Source: Salipiger mucosus DSM 16094 (GTDB lineage: Bacteria; Pseudomonadota; Alphaproteobacteria; Rhodobacterales; Rhodobacteraceae). Taken from it: a stretch of DNA of 64,000 nt. The position numbers and the translations under genes were made by a program. Within the stretch, counting starts at the first letter, position 1. The number at the start of each line of letters is the position of its first letter. The stretch lies in NCBI RefSeq assembly GCF_000442255.1, contig NZ_KE557278.1:162467-226466 (forward strand). The letters run 5' to 3'. Positions 921 through 8,980 of this stretch are shown here, one piece after another. Below the pieces are notes generated by a model, which was not told the origin of the DNA, did no database searches, and worked only from the letters and a program-made list of their open reading frames with translations.

Positions 921-1826
921 TCAGCCGATGAGGCCCTGGAACTCGCGCCATTCGCCCTTGGACATGCCGGAGTTTTCCTGTGTCACCTCTTCACCCTTGA
1001 GCATCCGGCGGACGCACTCCAGGCCGGCAGCCGAGAGGGTGGCGCCGCCCATGCGGTAGTCTTCGAAGGCCCGGTAGGCGAAGGGCACCCAGTCCTTGAC
1101 CATCTCGCAGATGGCATCGGCATAGACGCGGATCTCGTATTGCGCGTGGCTGTCGGCGCGCAGGCGCAGGAAGTGCAGCAGGTTGTGCAGATCCACCTTC
1201 CAGTACCATTGCGTGTAGATGTTCGCCGGCAGGTTCATCCGTGCCAGTTCCCGCGCGAGGCCGTCCTGTCCCTCGGTCGAGATCATCTCCTCGTAGTGGT
1301 CGTAGGCGCGCATCGCGTCGTCGCGCAGGTAGCGCAGCACGCGCTCGGCCTCCTCGCCCGTCAGCGCCGCGCCGCGACCCTGGTTGTTGACCGTCGACTG
1401 CGCCGCCAGTGCGTCTGCTTCGGGGATGTAGAACTCGCGGTCGAGGATCGAGTAGCGCGCGGAGTACTCGTTCACGTTGGCGGTGCGGTGGCGGATCCAC
1501 TGACGCGCCACGAAGACCGGCAGCTTCACATGCAGCTTGATCTCGCACATCTCGAAGGGCGTCGAGTGCCAGTGCCGCATCAGGTAGCGGATCAGCCCCT
1601 CGTCGTTCGAGACGCTCTTGGTGCCGCGTCCGTAGCTGACCCGCGCCGCCTGGGTGATCGCCGCGTCGTCGCCCATGTAGTCGACCACCCGCACGAAGCC
1701 GTGGTCCAGCACCGGCCGCGCGTGGTAGAGATGCGCCTCCATCCCGGGCGAGACCGCGCGCAGGGTCTGCTGCGGCTGGCTGCGCAGCTCTTCGATTTCG
1801 GCCTGCTGGTCGGGCGAGAGGGGCAT
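921..1826 (-). CDS. thyX: FAD-dependent thymidylate synthase ThyX
   Basis: ThyX makes dTMP from dUMP using methylene-tetrahydrofolate and NADPH through bound FAD. The 301-residue protein carries the ThyX signature [14 protein letters not shown] in the position of the family motif RHRx7S, followed by a long helical domain with [17 protein letters not shown] chose the ATG at 1826 because AAAGGGA lies just upstream and the family N-terminus (MPLSPDQQ) begins there; a longer ORF extends upstream but looks non-coding. It is divergent from the lipoprotein gene at 2015. No thyA is visible in the window. Confidence 0.95.
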
Positions 1827-2014: not shown

Positions 2015-3097
2015 ATGTATCGTTATTTCATGATGCTCGCGCTTGCGGGTGTTCTTGCTGGCTGTTCGTCCGGCGGAGGAGGCGACAACCCGCTCTCCGA
2101 GGACGAGGAATGCGTCCGCGAGAACCCCTTGCAGGAGTGCGAGGAGGCCGAAGAGGAAGAGGAAGTCGTCGAGGAGGAGGAAGAGGGCGTGCCCGATGAC
2201 CTCGCCGAAAGCCTCGCCAGTTTCAGGCTCTCCGAGGACAAGAGCACGATGTCGGTCAGCGTCGTTTCGGTCGACACCACACCGCTCGAGGCGACCTACC
2301 AGAGAAACACCGCGCTCGACGTGCGCAACGACGCAGGCGAGATCGCCTACCTCGCCTACTCGGTGCAGGAGGACCCGCTGGACCGCTTCTTCATGGCGCT
2401 CGGCAACCGCAGCGCCGACGGCTCGGTCGAGGCGACGGCCGTCGCCTCGGGCGGGCAGTTCGGCACCGTCTACCATGGCAGCGGCTACTCGCGCGACGGT
2501 GCCTATACTCCGCCGACCGTCGGCGATGGCCCGGGCGAGGGGCAGGTCAGCTATGCCGGGCGTTACGTCTCGATGCTGAGCCTCACCGGCCGCGACGACA
2601 CCACGGCGGACGGCGACCCGGTCATCATCCTGCCGGTCGCGGATGGGACCCCCCTGGCGATCACGCCGTCGCAGCCCGCGGTGATCGAGGGGGTTATCTT
2701 CCTCAATGCCAACTTCGCCGAGGCGACCGTCGAAGGGATCATTTTCGATCGTGTGGCCGAGAACCCCTCGCCAAATCCCAACCTTCTGGACGACGATCCG
2801 AGCAACGACGACCAGATCCCGGAAGGCTACAACGCAACGCGCAGCTTCGAAGATGTCGACCTCTACGTCTCGGACATCGACGAGAACGGCGAATTCCTTG
2901 GCGAAGGCAGTGTGAACGATCAGAATGTCGGCAGCTACGGCGGCATCTTCGGCGGCGAGGATGCGGGACATGTCGCGGGCGTGACGAATTTCAACATCGA
3001 GAACAACTCGATCGAAGAAATCGGCGCTTTCGTCCTGACTCAGTGCGGCCTCGACGGAGATGACGCGGTTTGCGACCAGGCGGCGCCGTTCGAGTGA
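2015..3097 (+). CDS. Surface lipoprotein with acidic N-terminal linker and TbpB-like barrel; predicted Slam cargo
   Basis: A 360-residue lipoprotein. The signal peptide ends in a lipobox LAGC with the lipidated Cys at 17, followed by a Gly-rich tether and a run of Glu/Asp (about residues 41-57). The rest is beta-rich with many Gly/Asp turns. Near the C terminus, YGGIFGGEDAGHVAG resembles the G-x-F-G-x2-A-x-x-x-x-G hallmark of the barrel lobe of TbpB-like surface lipoproteins. The stop overlaps the ATG of the next gene (TGATG), which encodes a Slam translocator, so it is very probably that translocator's substrate, displayed on the outer leaflet. The acidic tract after Cys17 also fits a surface lipoprotein. 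The ligand is unknown. Two C-terminal Cys residues could form a disulfide. Confidence 0.75.
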   Translation: MYRYFMMLALAGVLAGCSSGGGGDNPLSEDEECVRENPLQECEEAEEEEEVVEEEEEGVPDDLAESLASFRLSEDKSTMSVSVVSVDTTPLEATYQRNTALDVRNDAGEIAYLAYSVQEDPLDRFFMALGNRSADGSVEATAVASGGQFGTVYHGSGYSRDGAYTPPTVGDGPGEGQVSYAGRYVSMLSLTGRDDTTADGDPVIILPVADGTPLAITPSQPAVIEGVIFLNANFAEATVEGIIFDRVAENPSPNPNLLDDDPSNDDQIPEGYNATRSFEDVDLYVSDIDENGEFLGEGSVNDQNVGSYGGIFGGEDAGHVAGVTNFNIENNSIEEIGAFVLTQCGLDGDDAVCDQAAPFE

Positions 3098-4509
3098 TGC
3101 GCCGCACGGCGGCCTGTCTCGCCGCGGCGCTGCTCGCGGCGTTGCCGGTCGCGGAACCGGTGAGCGCCCAGACCGAGGCCGTGCAAGACGATCCGCCGGC
3201 GACGGCCGTCGAACTGACCCTGCCCCAGCTGCGTGCGCTTGCCGCCCGGGCGGTCCAGGCGGGGCGCTACGACGCGGCGCTGCAACTGGCCGGGCTGATG
3301 CTCGCGGCGGATGCCGAGGATAGCTACGCACATTTCGTCGTCGCGGAGGCCCATCTGCGGGGCGGCGATCCGCGTCTCGCGCGCGAGGCGGCGCATCTTT
3401 CCTACCGCCACGCCGACACCGACGTGCAGAAACACGAGGCAGCCCGCGCCGCGGCGGCCGCCAGTGCGCGCGAGGGGCGGTTCCTGCCCGCCCAGATCTG
3501 GATGCGCCGCGCGCTCTGGTCCTCGCCCGGCGAGGCGATGACGCAACGGGCCGCGAACGAGTTTCGTGCCCTGCGGCGCAAGGCGAGGCTGCGGATCGAC
3601 GGAGGATTGACCGTCGCGCCCTCATCTAACGTGAACGGTGGATCCTCGGAACGTGTGAACACCATCGAGGGTCTGCCTCTCGTGGGCATCCTGTCACCGA
3701 CCGCGCAGGCGCTGTCCGGTACCGTCGCACGCGCGGAGATGACGCTGCGCTACCGCCTCGCGCGCAACGAGAGGGCGCAGACCGAGCTGCGTGCGCATGG
3801 TGAGGTCAAGCGGGTCTGGCTGAGCGATGAGGCGCAGGACAAGGCGCCCTCGGCAGACAACGGGGACTTCGGATCCAGCCTGCTGGAAGCCGGGCTGATG
3901 CATCGCCGTAGTCTCGCCGAAAAGGGGCCGGTGCTTTCACTGGGGGTACATGGCGGGCGCAGCTGGGCCGCCGAGGCGCCGCGCTATGATTTCGGCCGGG
4001 TGAGCGCAGCAATGGTGCAGTCGCTGGGCGCGCGAACGGCGCTGACCATCGGCCACATGCGGCAGGAACAATACGACCTTGATGGCACGGCCGATAACGT
4101 GACCACGCAGGCTTGGTCGTTGGGCGTGATGCGGCGGCTTGCGCAGGGCAGTCGCCTGTCCCTGAACTACCAGGTCGCGGACAGCCAGTCCGAGAACGTA
4201 AACGCTGTGCGCCGGACCGAAGGTCTGCGCGCACGTTTCGACCTGGGCCGGCCCGTCGGTCCGGTAAAACTGGGGCTGTCGCTTTCGGCCTTCGACAGTC
4301 ACTATCCCGATTACCGCGTGGTGTTGCCGGTGCCGGGGGGGCGCGAGGACAGGTTCTACGGCGCCGATCTCGACCTGACGCTGCATCGGTTCGATGTCGC
4401 GGGGTTCGTGCCGAAGGTGCGGCTGAGTGCCGAACGGAGCGAATCCAACGTCAGCCGGTTCGATACCGAGGAGTACTCGATCTCGGTCGGCATCGAGTCG
4501 CGGTTCTGA
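3097..4509 (+). CDS. Slam-family outer-membrane lipoprotein translocator (surface lipoprotein assembly modifier, DUF560; type XI secretion)
   Basis: A 470-residue protein with a signal peptide (1-25, ending VSAQ), an alpha-helical TPR-like periplasmic domain (about 35-150: repeated Ala-rich helices with GRYDAAL and AREGRFLPAQ) and a C-terminal barrel (about 165-470) ending in the outer-membrane C-terminal Phe (IESRF). The barrel opens with a GGLTVAPSSNVNGG segment typical of Slam barrels. Slam proteins carry lipoproteins across the outer membrane and are usually encoded beside their substrate. Here the ATG overlaps the stop of the lipoprotein gene, implying translational coupling. The 470-residue length fits Slam. 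I chose the internal ATG at 3097 because it begins the signal peptide. Substrate specificity is inferred from linkage only. Confidence 0.85.
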   Translation: MRRTAACLAAALLAALPVAEPVSAQTEAVQDDPPATAVELTLPQLRALAARAVQAGRYDAALQLAGLMLAADAEDSYAHFVVAEAHLRGGDPRLAREAAHLSYRHADTDVQKHEAARAAAAASAREGRFLPAQIWMRRALWSSPGEAMTQRAANEFRALRRKARLRIDGGLTVAPSSNVNGGSSERVNTIEGLPLVGILSPTAQALSGTVARAEMTLRYRLARNERAQTELRAHGEVKRVWLSDEAQDKAPSADNGDFGSSLLEAGLMHRRSLAEKGPVLSLGVHGGRSWAAEAPRYDFGRVSAAMVQSLGARTALTIGHMRQEQYDLDGTADNVTTQAWSLGVMRRLAQGSRLSLNYQVADSQSENVNAVRRTEGLRARFDLGRPVGPVKLGLSLSAFDSHYPDYRVVLPVPGGREDRFYGADLDLTLHRFDVAGFVPKVRLSAERSESNVSRFDTEEYSISVGIESRF

Positions 4510-4589: not shown

Positions 4590-5024
4590 ATGGGCATCCG
4601 CTACCTTCACACGATGGTCCGGGTGAAGGACCTGGACAAGTCGCTGGAATTCTACAAGCTGCTGGGCCTCAAGGAGCGCCGGCGCAGCGAGAACGAGAAG
4701 GGCCGCTTCACGCTGGTCTTCCTCTGCCCGCCCGAGCAGGACGACGGCACCGCCGACGTGGAATTGACCTACAACTGGGACGGAGACGAGGGACTGCCCT
4801 CGGATTCGCGCCATTTCGGCCATCTGGCCTACACGGTCCCCGACATCTACGAGATGTGCCAGACGCTCATGGACGCGGGGGTGACGATCAACCGGCCGCC
4901 GCGCGACGGGCACATGGCCTTTGTCCGCTCGCCCGACAACGTGTCGATCGAGCTGCTGCAGCAGGGCGACGCCAAGCCGCCGCAGGAGCCCTGGGCGAGC
5001 ATGGAAAACACGGGCCATTGGTAA
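4590..5024 (+). CDS. gloA: Lactoylglutathione lyase (glyoxalase I)
   Basis: Glyoxalase I isomerises the methylglyoxal-glutathione hemithioacetal to S-lactoylglutathione. The 144-residue protein is a vicinal oxygen chelate fold with two beta-alpha-beta modules. It starts MGIRYLHTMVRVKDLDKSLEFY, with His at residue 7 as first metal ligand, and contains FGHLAYTVPD and SIELLQ supplying the later His and Glu ligands. AAGGAG six to nine bases before the ATG at 4590 fixes the start. The following gene overlaps its stop by a few bases. Confidence 0.95.
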   Translation: MGIRYLHTMVRVKDLDKSLEFYKLLGLKERRRSENEKGRFTLVFLCPPEQDDGTADVELTYNWDGDEGLPSDSRHFGHLAYTVPDIYEMCQTLMDAGVTINRPPRDGHMAFVRSPDNVSIELLQQGDAKPPQEPWASMENTGHW

Positions 5025-5722
5025 GAGGGCTGCGAGCCCTCGCGCTGGCCGCCGCGCTGGCGATCGGGGCGGCCGCGGCCGCCCCGGCCCAGGGCTGCCG
5101 GCTGGCGCTGTTGCTCGCGCTCGACGTCTCCTCCTCGGTCGACGATGCCGAATACAAGCTGCAGAAGGAGGGGCTCGCCGGGGCGCTGAGCGATCCCGAC
5201 ATCCGTGGCGCGATCCTCGACGGCAATGAGCGGGTGGCGCTGGCCGTCTACGAGTGGAGCGGCCGCCACCAGAGCGCCACCGTGCTGGACTGGACGCTGC
5301 TTGACGGGCCGACGGCCCTGGATGGTGCGGTCGCGCGTATTCTCTCGGCGCCGCGCAGCTATAATCGGTTTCCGACAGCGATGGGATTTGCGCTTGGCTA
5401 TGGCGCCAACCTGCTGGAGCGCGCTCCGAGTTGTACGCGCAAGGTGATCGACGTTTCCGGCGACGGGATCACCAACGACGGGTTCCGACCGCAGCAGGCC
5501 TACGTGCATTTCCCCTTCGCGGACGTGGTGGTCAACGGGCTGGCCGTTCTGGGTTCGGACCCGCGCGTTGCCGACTACTACCGTGGCGAGGTGGCCCACG
5601 GGCCCGGCGCTTTCGTCGAGGTGGCCGAAGGATATGCCGATTTCCGGCGTGCCATGACGCTCAAGCTTTTCCGGGAGCTCAACGACATGGTCGTCGGTCG
5701 CCTGGGACCCGGCCTGCGCTGA
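5018..5722 (+). CDS. DUF1194 von Willebrand factor A-like secreted protein
   Basis: A protein of about 234 residues with a signal peptide (Ala-rich, ending APAQG) and a VWA-type fold carrying the MIDAS motif DVSSSVD, so metal-dependent protein binding outside the cytoplasm is likely. DUF1194 proteins of this size are common in alphaproteobacteria, but the role is unknown. No in-frame ATG or GTG precedes the signal peptide. The best start is TTG at 5018, inside the end of gloA (7-base overlap), with CTG at 5030 as alternative. The gene converges with the MarR-type gene 21 bases downstream. Confidence 0.8.
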   Translation: MVRGLRALALAAALAIGAAAAAPAQGCRLALLLALDVSSSVDDAEYKLQKEGLAGALSDPDIRGAILDGNERVALAVYEWSGRHQSATVLDWTLLDGPTALDGAVARILSAPRSYNRFPTAMGFALGYGANLLERAPSCTRKVIDVSGDGITNDGFRPQQAYVHFPFADVVVNGLAVLGSDPRVADYYRGEVAHGPGAFVEVAEGYADFRRAMTLKLFRELNDMVVGRLGPGLR

Positions 5723-7062: not shown

Positions 7063-8298
<1,236 letters not shown>

Positions 8299-8304
8299 GC
8301 GATC

Positions 8305-8332
8305 GCGCATCGGCAGATTTTTGCCGATGCGC
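8305..8332 (+). terminator. Hairpin after the aminotransferase gene
   Basis: A perfect 11-bp stem GCGCATCGGCA/TGCCGATGCGC with a six-base T-rich loop, seven bases after the aminotransferase stop. There is no following T tract, so it may be a weak terminator or an mRNA 3'-end stabiliser. Confidence 0.55.
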
Positions 8333-8428
8333 CCGCGGTGCGGATTGAGTTTTTTCCGAATTGGGCGAAAGTTTTTGGTCAATCGCGAGTCAATACGCGA
8401 TCCATCGAGCACATCATCCGAGGGACCC

Positions 8429-8980
8429 ATGAGCGTGACCAACGCCATTCCGTCGTCGCTGCGCAGCCTTCTTCTGGTCTGCGCTCTGGGCGGGCTGACC
8501 GCCGCCTGCAGCAGCACGCCGCGCCAGCCGACCATGCTGTCCGAAGTCGATCCGCAACGCCTGTCGGTCGCCCTGCGCGAAGTGCGCGAACTTCGTTCCG
8601 AGGGGCGGCGAGTCTGGTGCGTGCCCTTCGCGCGCAACGCGAGCGGGATCGAGATCCGCGGGAACGCCCACACCTGGTGGCACAAGGCCAAGGGCGAATA
8701 CGCCCGGGGCGACACGCCGCAGCCGGGCGCGGTGATGTCCTTCGCGCCGACCGGCTCGATGCGGCTGGGGCATATCGCCGTCGTCGCGCGCGTGATCTCG
8801 CCGCGCGAGATCGAGGTCCATCACGCCAACTGGGAACGCAACGAGGTGTCGCTCGCGATGCCCGTGATCGACGTCTCCAGCCGGGGCGACTGGTCCGAGG
8901 TGCGCGTCAAGAGTCAGCCCACGGCCTTCGGCAGCGTCTACCCGGTCAACGGCTTCATCTATCCGGACTCCCGGGGCTGA
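8429..8980 (+). CDS. CHAP-domain lipoprotein (putative cell-wall amidase/endopeptidase)
   Basis: A 183-residue protein with a lipobox LTAAC (Cys at 27), then a CHAP/NlpC-P60-like cysteine peptidase domain. The predicted catalytic Cys is in RRVWCVPFAR (Cys64), the His in MRLGHIAVV and a third polar residue in HHANWE. Such domains cut peptidoglycan peptides or amide bonds. As a lipoprotein it would act in the periplasm from a membrane anchor. ATG 8429 is chosen because the signal peptide begins there. Confidence 0.85.
   Translation: MSVTNAIPSSLRSLLLVCALGGLTAACSSTPRQPTMLSEVDPQRLSVALREVRELRSEGRRVWCVPFARNASGIEIRGNAHTWWHKAKGEYARGDTPQPGAVMSFAPTGSMRLGHIAVVARVISPREIEVHHANWERNEVSLAMPVIDVSSRGDWSEVRVKSQPTAFGSVYPVNGFIYPDSRG

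Follow-up and report, generated by a model that had tools for sequence, protein, structure and literature searches.

A predicted type XI secretion exporter and its lipoprotein cargo between thyX and gloA in Salipiger mucosus: a widespread pair that seems to be replaced as a unit

We analysed a stretch of 64,000 nucleotides from Salipiger mucosus DSM 16094 (contig NZ_KE557278.1, positions 162,467 to 226,466 of the forward strand; the whole stretch is called the window hereafter), in which two adjacent genes on the plus strand encode a predicted lipoprotein and a putative outer-membrane exporter of the Slam or type XI secretion system (T11SS) kind. A preliminary description, drawn from the letters and the translated open reading frames (ORFs), had proposed that the two genes form a surface-display unit, and the gene features it reported were confirmed. 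The lipoprotein gene (2015..3097) codes for 360 amino acids, starting with a lipoprotein signal peptide (2015..2065) in which a LAGC lipobox at residues 14-17 predicts lipidation of Cys17. An Asn-Pro-Leu motif of the [NQ]P[FLWVMY] class (residues 25-27, 2087..2095) follows the cysteine, an acidic linker occupies residues 29-57 approximately, and the YGGIFGGEDAGHVAG segment is present in the translation. The TGA stop codon at 3095-3097 shares one base with the ATG of the exporter gene at 3097, and the two genes probably constitute one overlapping, translationally coupled cassette. The exporter gene (3097..4509) encodes 470 amino acids with an N terminus that appears signal-like by eye and a Phe as last residue.

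The AlphaFold2 model of the lipoprotein (mean predicted local distance difference test, pLDDT, 85.2; predicted template modelling score, pTM, 0.79) displayed a beta-strand handle at about residues 66-160 (2210..2494) and a C-terminal barrel of eight strands at residues 177-343 (2543..3043). Searched with Foldseek, the model returned 50 listed matches consisting of fHbp, TbpB, HphA and NHBA entries, with E values from 1.5e-6 to 7.5e-5. When 24 relatives of this cargo were scanned at E <= 1, slam_lipo, the NCBIfam model of Slam-dependent lipoproteins, matched 13 of them (best 3.5e-9), FHBP_C ten (best 1.6e-5) and TbpB_B_D nine (best 6.2e-7), while a profile of the same 24 searched against the PDB retrieved chains of factor H binding protein, matched over the barrel (best E 0.0069). 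A simple rule recognised a lipobox in 86 of 91 cargo homologues, and only cargos with a recognised lipobox entered the structure alignments. The combination of lipobox, handle and eight-strand barrel is best read as that of a Slam-dependent surface lipoprotein, display at the surface being a prediction of this model-based reading.

In the exporter model (71 sequences; mean pLDDT 92.8, pTM 0.82) seven helices at residues 42-162, forming the predicted periplasmic TPR domain (3220..3582), preceded 14 long strands between residues 165 and 468, a count which omits two pieces of 3-4 residues at 187-190 and 196-198. The predicted outer-membrane barrel ends in Phe (residues 165-470, 3589..4506), and Pfam SlipAM (PF04575) covers residues 318-470 with an E value of 2.1e-4. 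Among 24 aligned exporter relatives, SlipAM matched 20 (best 1.2e-6) and TPR_14 matched 15 at E <= 1, and the exporter profile matched TPR structures. Both folds anticipated in the preliminary description, a handle with a barrel in the first protein and a TPR region with a 14-strand barrel in the second, were present in the models. The distribution of the exporter was evaluated in 198 genomes of the family, the own genome included, of which 101 contained a homologue of the window exporter at E <= 1e-3. Sixty of these exporter-positive genomes were searched with SlipAM, resulting in a match at E <= 0.01 in 39 and in a score above the Pfam cut-off in 26, one of them (G156) through other SlipAM genes only. 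This exporter branch lies at the edge of the Pfam SlipAM model.

The architecture of the pair was compared with known systems. As in the Neisseria proteins Slam1 and Slam2 with their cargos TbpB, LbpB, HpuA and fHbp (PMC5449769), a TPR domain and a 14-strand DUF560 barrel accompany a lipidated cargo made of a handle and an eight-strand barrel. Unlike the Neisseria systems, the window locus has no linked TonB receptor and a Pfam similarity near the detection limit, and its cargo has one lobe and an acidic linker; the N-P-[FLW] motif after the lipidated cysteine may be a further difference. Literature searches combining DUF560 and Rhodobacter, or T11SS and Roseobacter, gave Grossman et al. 2025 (PMC12282271) as sole match. 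These authors describe a syntenic locus of Rhodobacteraceae and Roseobacteraceae (marine cluster 3) composed of ThyX, a cargo, a T11SS outer-membrane protein, lactoylglutathione lyase and DUF1194, where TonB receptors are rare and the cargo, found in 10 of 11 loci inspected, is a lipoprotein of 282-375 amino acids with an eight-strand C-terminal barrel. The window locus, likened to it by gene set and description, has the same genes, a cargo of 360 amino acids with an eight-strand barrel and no TonB receptor, and is a new instance of this already published locus.

Several results weigh against assigning the pair to the Slam/T11SS systems. The window lipoprotein matched no Pfam family, TbpB_B_D and FHBP_C included, its match to slam_lipo was weak (E 0.079), and the TM-scores of its Foldseek matches were modest, mostly 0.3-0.4 when normalised to the query. 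The exporter's own SlipAM score straddles the cut-off of 22 bits (21.4 in the protein scan, 23.7 in the six-frame genome search) and is borderline for the window exporter alone, while 21 of the 60 exporter-positive genomes gave no SlipAM match at E <= 0.01. The profile search suggested in the preliminary description was successful for the exporter; for the cargo, a TbpB-type barrel profile recognised some relatives (TbpB_B_D or FHBP_C) and not the window protein. Furthermore, verified T11SS exporters all belong to cluster 1 in the account of PMC12282271, and the literature seen contained no experimental work on an exporter of cluster 3. Finally, among the 50 PDB matches that Foldseek listed for the exporter no Slam was named and BcsC and PelB stood on top, a ranking that would favour a polysaccharide exporter built of TPRs and a barrel like BcsC, PelB and PgaA. 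We regard that assignment as hardly credible, as the model has 14 strands against the 16 given for PgaA (PMC8406197), a lipoprotein of Slam-cargo fold is its neighbour in 91 of the 101 loci, and no gene for polysaccharide synthesis was present among the eight nearby ORFs that were scanned; the SlipAM match argues in the same direction, though PgaA homologues fall into SlipAM too (PMC8406197). The lipoprotein might instead remain undisplayed on the periplasmic face, serving the barrel as an accessory subunit, which is very unlikely given that its fold matches the Slam-displayed lipoproteins fHbp and TbpB (Foldseek; PMC5449769) and that the exporter belongs to the Slam family. The models and family matches support a Slam/T11SS exporter with a surface-lipoprotein cargo as the best reading of the pair, in agreement with the original proposal, exposure at the surface being predicted from the folds.

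Slam-dependent lipoproteins undergo Sec export, lipidation and Lol transport, are captured through the cargo barrel and translocated, and finally display their handle. By the same scheme, the window lipoprotein would be synthesised with its lipoprotein signal peptide, exported by Sec and lipidated on Cys17, and would reach the outer membrane via the established Lol route. The exporter, with its TPR domain and 14-strand barrel, would then recognise the eight-strand C-terminal barrel of the cargo and move the protein outside, where the handle would be turned to the medium and would bind the ligand. The Slam scheme on which these proposed steps are based is that of PMC5449769 and PMC8406197.

The association of exporter and cargo was investigated at 101 exporter loci, namely that of the window and 100 further places in 95 genomes; this reading did not include the positive genomes G032, G067, G102, G144 and G155, nor several weak second rows. 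An iterated profile started from the window lipoprotein detected a cargo homologue on the exporter strand in 91 of the 101 loci, so that the arrangement is not a chance one. In 86 of these 91 loci a possible exporter start was no more than 35 nt away from the end of the cargo gene, gap lengths being biased short by the use of the start codon closest to the stop. The spacing was long or unmeasurable in the other five (L061, L065, L097, L121 and L124, the last with a broken cargo frame). A cargo was also present in 77 of 80 loci of a second set (the best 80 of 235, overlapping the family genomes). Searched genome-wide, the cargo profile found a match in all 40 exporter-positive genomes tried, the best-scoring among the 101, and in three of 80 genomes without this exporter, i.e., with no match to the window exporter at E <= 1e-3 (80 of 97 such genomes were examined). 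All three (G001, G015 and G115) own another SlipAM gene, a SlipAM protein of this sort occurring elsewhere in 11 of 60 checked genomes without this exporter; the G015 match adjoins its SlipAM gene by coordinates and the G001 match is weak (E 9e-5). The cargo family is near-absent from genomes without this exporter.

Cargo is therefore near-universal at the exporter loci and mostly unseen by domain models, which is new with respect to PMC12282271. Apart from the loci inspected at the syntenic site (10 of 11), that article counts 0.21 cargos per exporter by known domains and lists similarity below threshold among the possible reasons for few cargos. Our data point to this reason, as the similarity of the cargos falls below the thresholds of the domain models.

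The ten loci without recognised cargo fall into several groups. In L068, L125 and L131 the contig ends within 140 nt upstream, L089 and L114 are syntenic and have no space for a cargo, and the exporter frame of L129 is broken. L116 contains another, shorter lipoprotein (about 206 amino acids, CSTTTTPGSKG) upstream of the exporter in the usual cargo's place, possibly representing another cargo type. L046, L082 and L107 are exporter copies away from the site, lacking ThyX and GloA as well as a profile-recognised cargo, and their cargo may belong to a different family. In G115 (L253) the thyX-gloA gap holds a lone cargo gene, with CGGSSDTNPF after the lipobox, that no exporter accompanies and that may represent an intermediate of decay. 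A Rhodobacteraceae-type exporter with its cargo also occurs in L206 (JAHVJD010000002.1), titled Nocardioides marinus (Actinomycetota), an assembly that is probably mislabelled or contaminated.

The region following the lipidated cysteine was also analysed. In an alignment of 71 sequences, mean pairwise identity was 0.66, 0.84 and 0.46 at the Asn25, Pro26 and Leu27 columns and 0.22 in the following linker. A [NQ]-P-[FLWVMY] motif within 14 residues after the cysteine was found in 90 of 126 cargos, drawn from overlapping collections, and in none of 34 other lipoprotein-like ORFs, a small control group of which 15 came from random stretches and some are probably spurious; the letters of the motif were picked after viewing the sequences. 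In the family-genome set the motif was present in 63 of 86 cargos. Nothing relevant emerged when the literature was queried for an NPF motif in connection with Slam and lipoproteins, and as far as such searches go the motif is new. Its role as a sorting or exporter-entry signal is our guess.

We then considered the genes surrounding the pair. To the left, on the minus strand, lies the gene for ThyX, the thymidylate synthase complementing protein (921..1826; Thy1 E 8e-57), and to the right, on the plus strand, those for the glyoxalase-fold protein GloA (4590..5024; Glyoxalase E 8e-17) and, adjoining it, for a DUF1194 (vWA-like) protein (5021..5722, start codon assumed; E 1.4e-66 with 5021-5700 scanned). 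Of the 101 exporter loci, 72 showed both ThyX and GloA and 65 showed DUF1194, and PMC12282271 finds a significant co-occurrence against its own control, proposing from it that the exporter is functionally tied to these proteins through one-carbon metabolism, aldehyde repair or metal uptake, or with DUF1194 as partner or cargo. The same neighbours were examined in the 80 genomes without this exporter, where ThyX was found in 60 (E <= 1e-60) and GloA in 75 (E <= 1e-45). Sixty genomes own both, on different contigs in three and on the same contig in 57; each of these 57 pairs is divergent and lies no more than 3.2 kb apart, with 47 gaps of 65-398 bp and ten holding 0.6-3.2 kb of other DNA. DUF1194 occurred in 16 of 20 loci fetched without this exporter (ten picked for long gaps and ten by hand) and is not rarer there than at exporter loci. 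Genome G088, of the same genus, has the thyX-gloA arrangement with a gap of 226 bp and no cassette. Its empty site aligns to the window up to about position 1978 and again from about 4513; the two intergenic alignments score 39 (shuffle maximum 35) and 34 (shuffle maximum 34), barely above shuffles, so that the exact insertion junction is only suggestive.

The ten longer gaps were also considered as places where diverged cassettes might be hidden, an idea that was discarded: one contained the lone cargo of L253 and nine had no cargo, and the exporter profile found no exporter among up to six of the longest ORFs of each gap. The positions of ThyX, GloA and DUF1194 are independent of the cassette. 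As ThyX and GloA are divergent neighbours also where the exporter is missing, the published metabolic association needs no function to explain it, and a functional tie appears most improbable in view of the 57 paired genomes, the 16 DUF1194 loci and the empty site of G088. The published thymidylate, glyoxalase and DUF1194 association looks like passive synteny, an address rather than a pathway, so that a functional link of the two conserved flanks with the pair is doubted. Our account differs from PMC12282271 in finding cargo at 91 of 101 loci and neighbours resident without the exporter, where few cargos were reported and the neighbours were discussed as functional associations. Two inferences of that article are affected, as the cargo would be mostly unseen by domain models rather than missing and the neighbours would indicate a place. 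Reading them as an address removes misleading leads to the ligand.

The evolution of the pair was evaluated by distance and tree comparisons on 53-58 loci selected for clean genes, 53 in those involving RpoB. Exporter and cargo distances agreed with each other (rho 0.52, 0/500 permutations; 53 loci), as did those of RpoB and of the flanks, ThyX plus GloA (rho 0.49, 0/500). With RpoB distances the exporter showed a rho of 0.08 (61/500 permutations) and the cargo of 0.04 (86/500), and with their own flanks the values were 0.02 (203/500) and 0.06 (47/500) respectively; the same picture was obtained on 58 loci without RpoB. In log-likelihood, the cargo tree cost the exporter data 906, the flank tree 2296 and the RpoB tree 2506, the mean loss on shuffled trees being 3292 and the lowest 3102. 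For the RpoB data the loss was 707 with the flank tree, 2858 with the exporter tree and 3638 with shuffles. Since topology tests rejected every exchanged topology, including the exporter tree for the cargo and the reverse, we relied on these relative costs. Two cargo types (24 and 29 members) were defined by cutting an average-linkage tree in two. The exporter tree required four changes of cargo type (mean of shuffles 17.4, 0/200 as low) and the RpoB tree 16 (mean of shuffles 17.8, 48/200 as low). On the flank tree, which included 58 loci with and 20 without the cassette and had no shuffle control, presence changed 14 times and cargo type 19 times.

As exporter and cargo track each other and not RpoB or the flanks, the pair was read as a unit exchanged at a fixed site. 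By these comparisons, the whole pair seems to have been replaced repeatedly, probably by horizontal exchange, with some vertical signal left. A purely vertical inheritance with fast, saturating divergence would need no exchange at the site, and it is a real contender that fits less well and that we hold to be unlikely. In its favour, mean protein distances are 0.70 for the exporter and 0.68 for the cargo, compared with 0.11 for RpoB and 0.20 for the flanks, the RpoB tree still beats shuffled trees for the exporter data, exporter distance is slightly reduced in the 30 pairs closest by RpoB (0.66 vs 0.70), and some close species pairs carry similar cassettes (G005-G073), the second and fourth points indicating that vertical signal remains. 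On the other hand, exporter and cargo, for all their divergence, still agree with each other, the RpoB proteins of G178, G121 and G034 are 4-5% apart while their exporters differ by 66-75%, and cargo type, shared by no more than 13 of the 30 pairs closest in RpoB, changes on the RpoB tree as often as on shuffles and only four times on the exporter tree.

Taken together, the data favour, with a probability of about 0.87, one overlapping and probably translationally coupled Slam/T11SS surface-display cassette whose exporter and cargo would be gained, lost and replaced together between the divergent ThyX and GloA genes, with surface exposure, dependence on the exporter and horizontal exchange as its predicted components. 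A more far-reaching scheme, to which we give a little less than even chances, is that the thyX-gloA gap is a family-wide exchange site of Rhodobacteraceae, where recombination within the conserved flanks would exchange matched cassettes as whole units, as happens with surface-polysaccharide loci, the exporter barrel and the cargo would co-diversify as partners, and N-P-[FLW] would act as the sorting or exporter-entry signal of the branch. As far as literature searches go, the near-universal cargo, the alternative to a metabolic association, the exchange-like evolution and the motif are new. Natural matched and mismatched exporter and cargo pairs at one fixed site provide a better lead than the neighbours and are suited to swap tests of cargo specificity.

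As for the use of the displayed protein, the preliminary description had set the pair apart from iron-piracy systems for the lack of an adjoining TonB-dependent receptor. The lack was confirmed, with five PF00593 matches in the whole genome and none on the window contig (C6), in contrast to iron piracy of the TbpB/HpuA type; this feature is an already published hallmark of marine cluster 3 T11SS (PMC12282271). HphA/hemophilin (8glo, 8gm3) is among the Foldseek matches listed for the cargo; unlike it, the window cargo is lipidated and adjoins no TonB receptor, and visual inspection of the cargo alignment revealed no conserved heme ligand. Iron or heme capture was discarded as the default use on account of the missing linked receptor and heme ligand. 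With five receptor matches located away from this contig, TonB-linked capture could in principle operate in trans, though this is unsupported. That the site is fixed while its content turns over rapidly points to an exposed protein subject to pressure for variation, and we tentatively propose, at somewhat less than even odds, a binding protein under diversifying exchange, through contact with phages, protists or partners, rather than TonB-linked iron capture.

Two further genes of the window were recorded. Beyond ThyX, a minus-strand ORF at 20-619 matches OMP_b-brl (E 5e-20) and corresponds to a small outer-membrane beta-barrel protein. At 8189-8980 a CHAP-domain ORF (E 1.8e-14) contains a lipobox-like LTAACSS about 105 residues past its listed start, suggesting that the true start is probably later and the product probably a lipoprotein.

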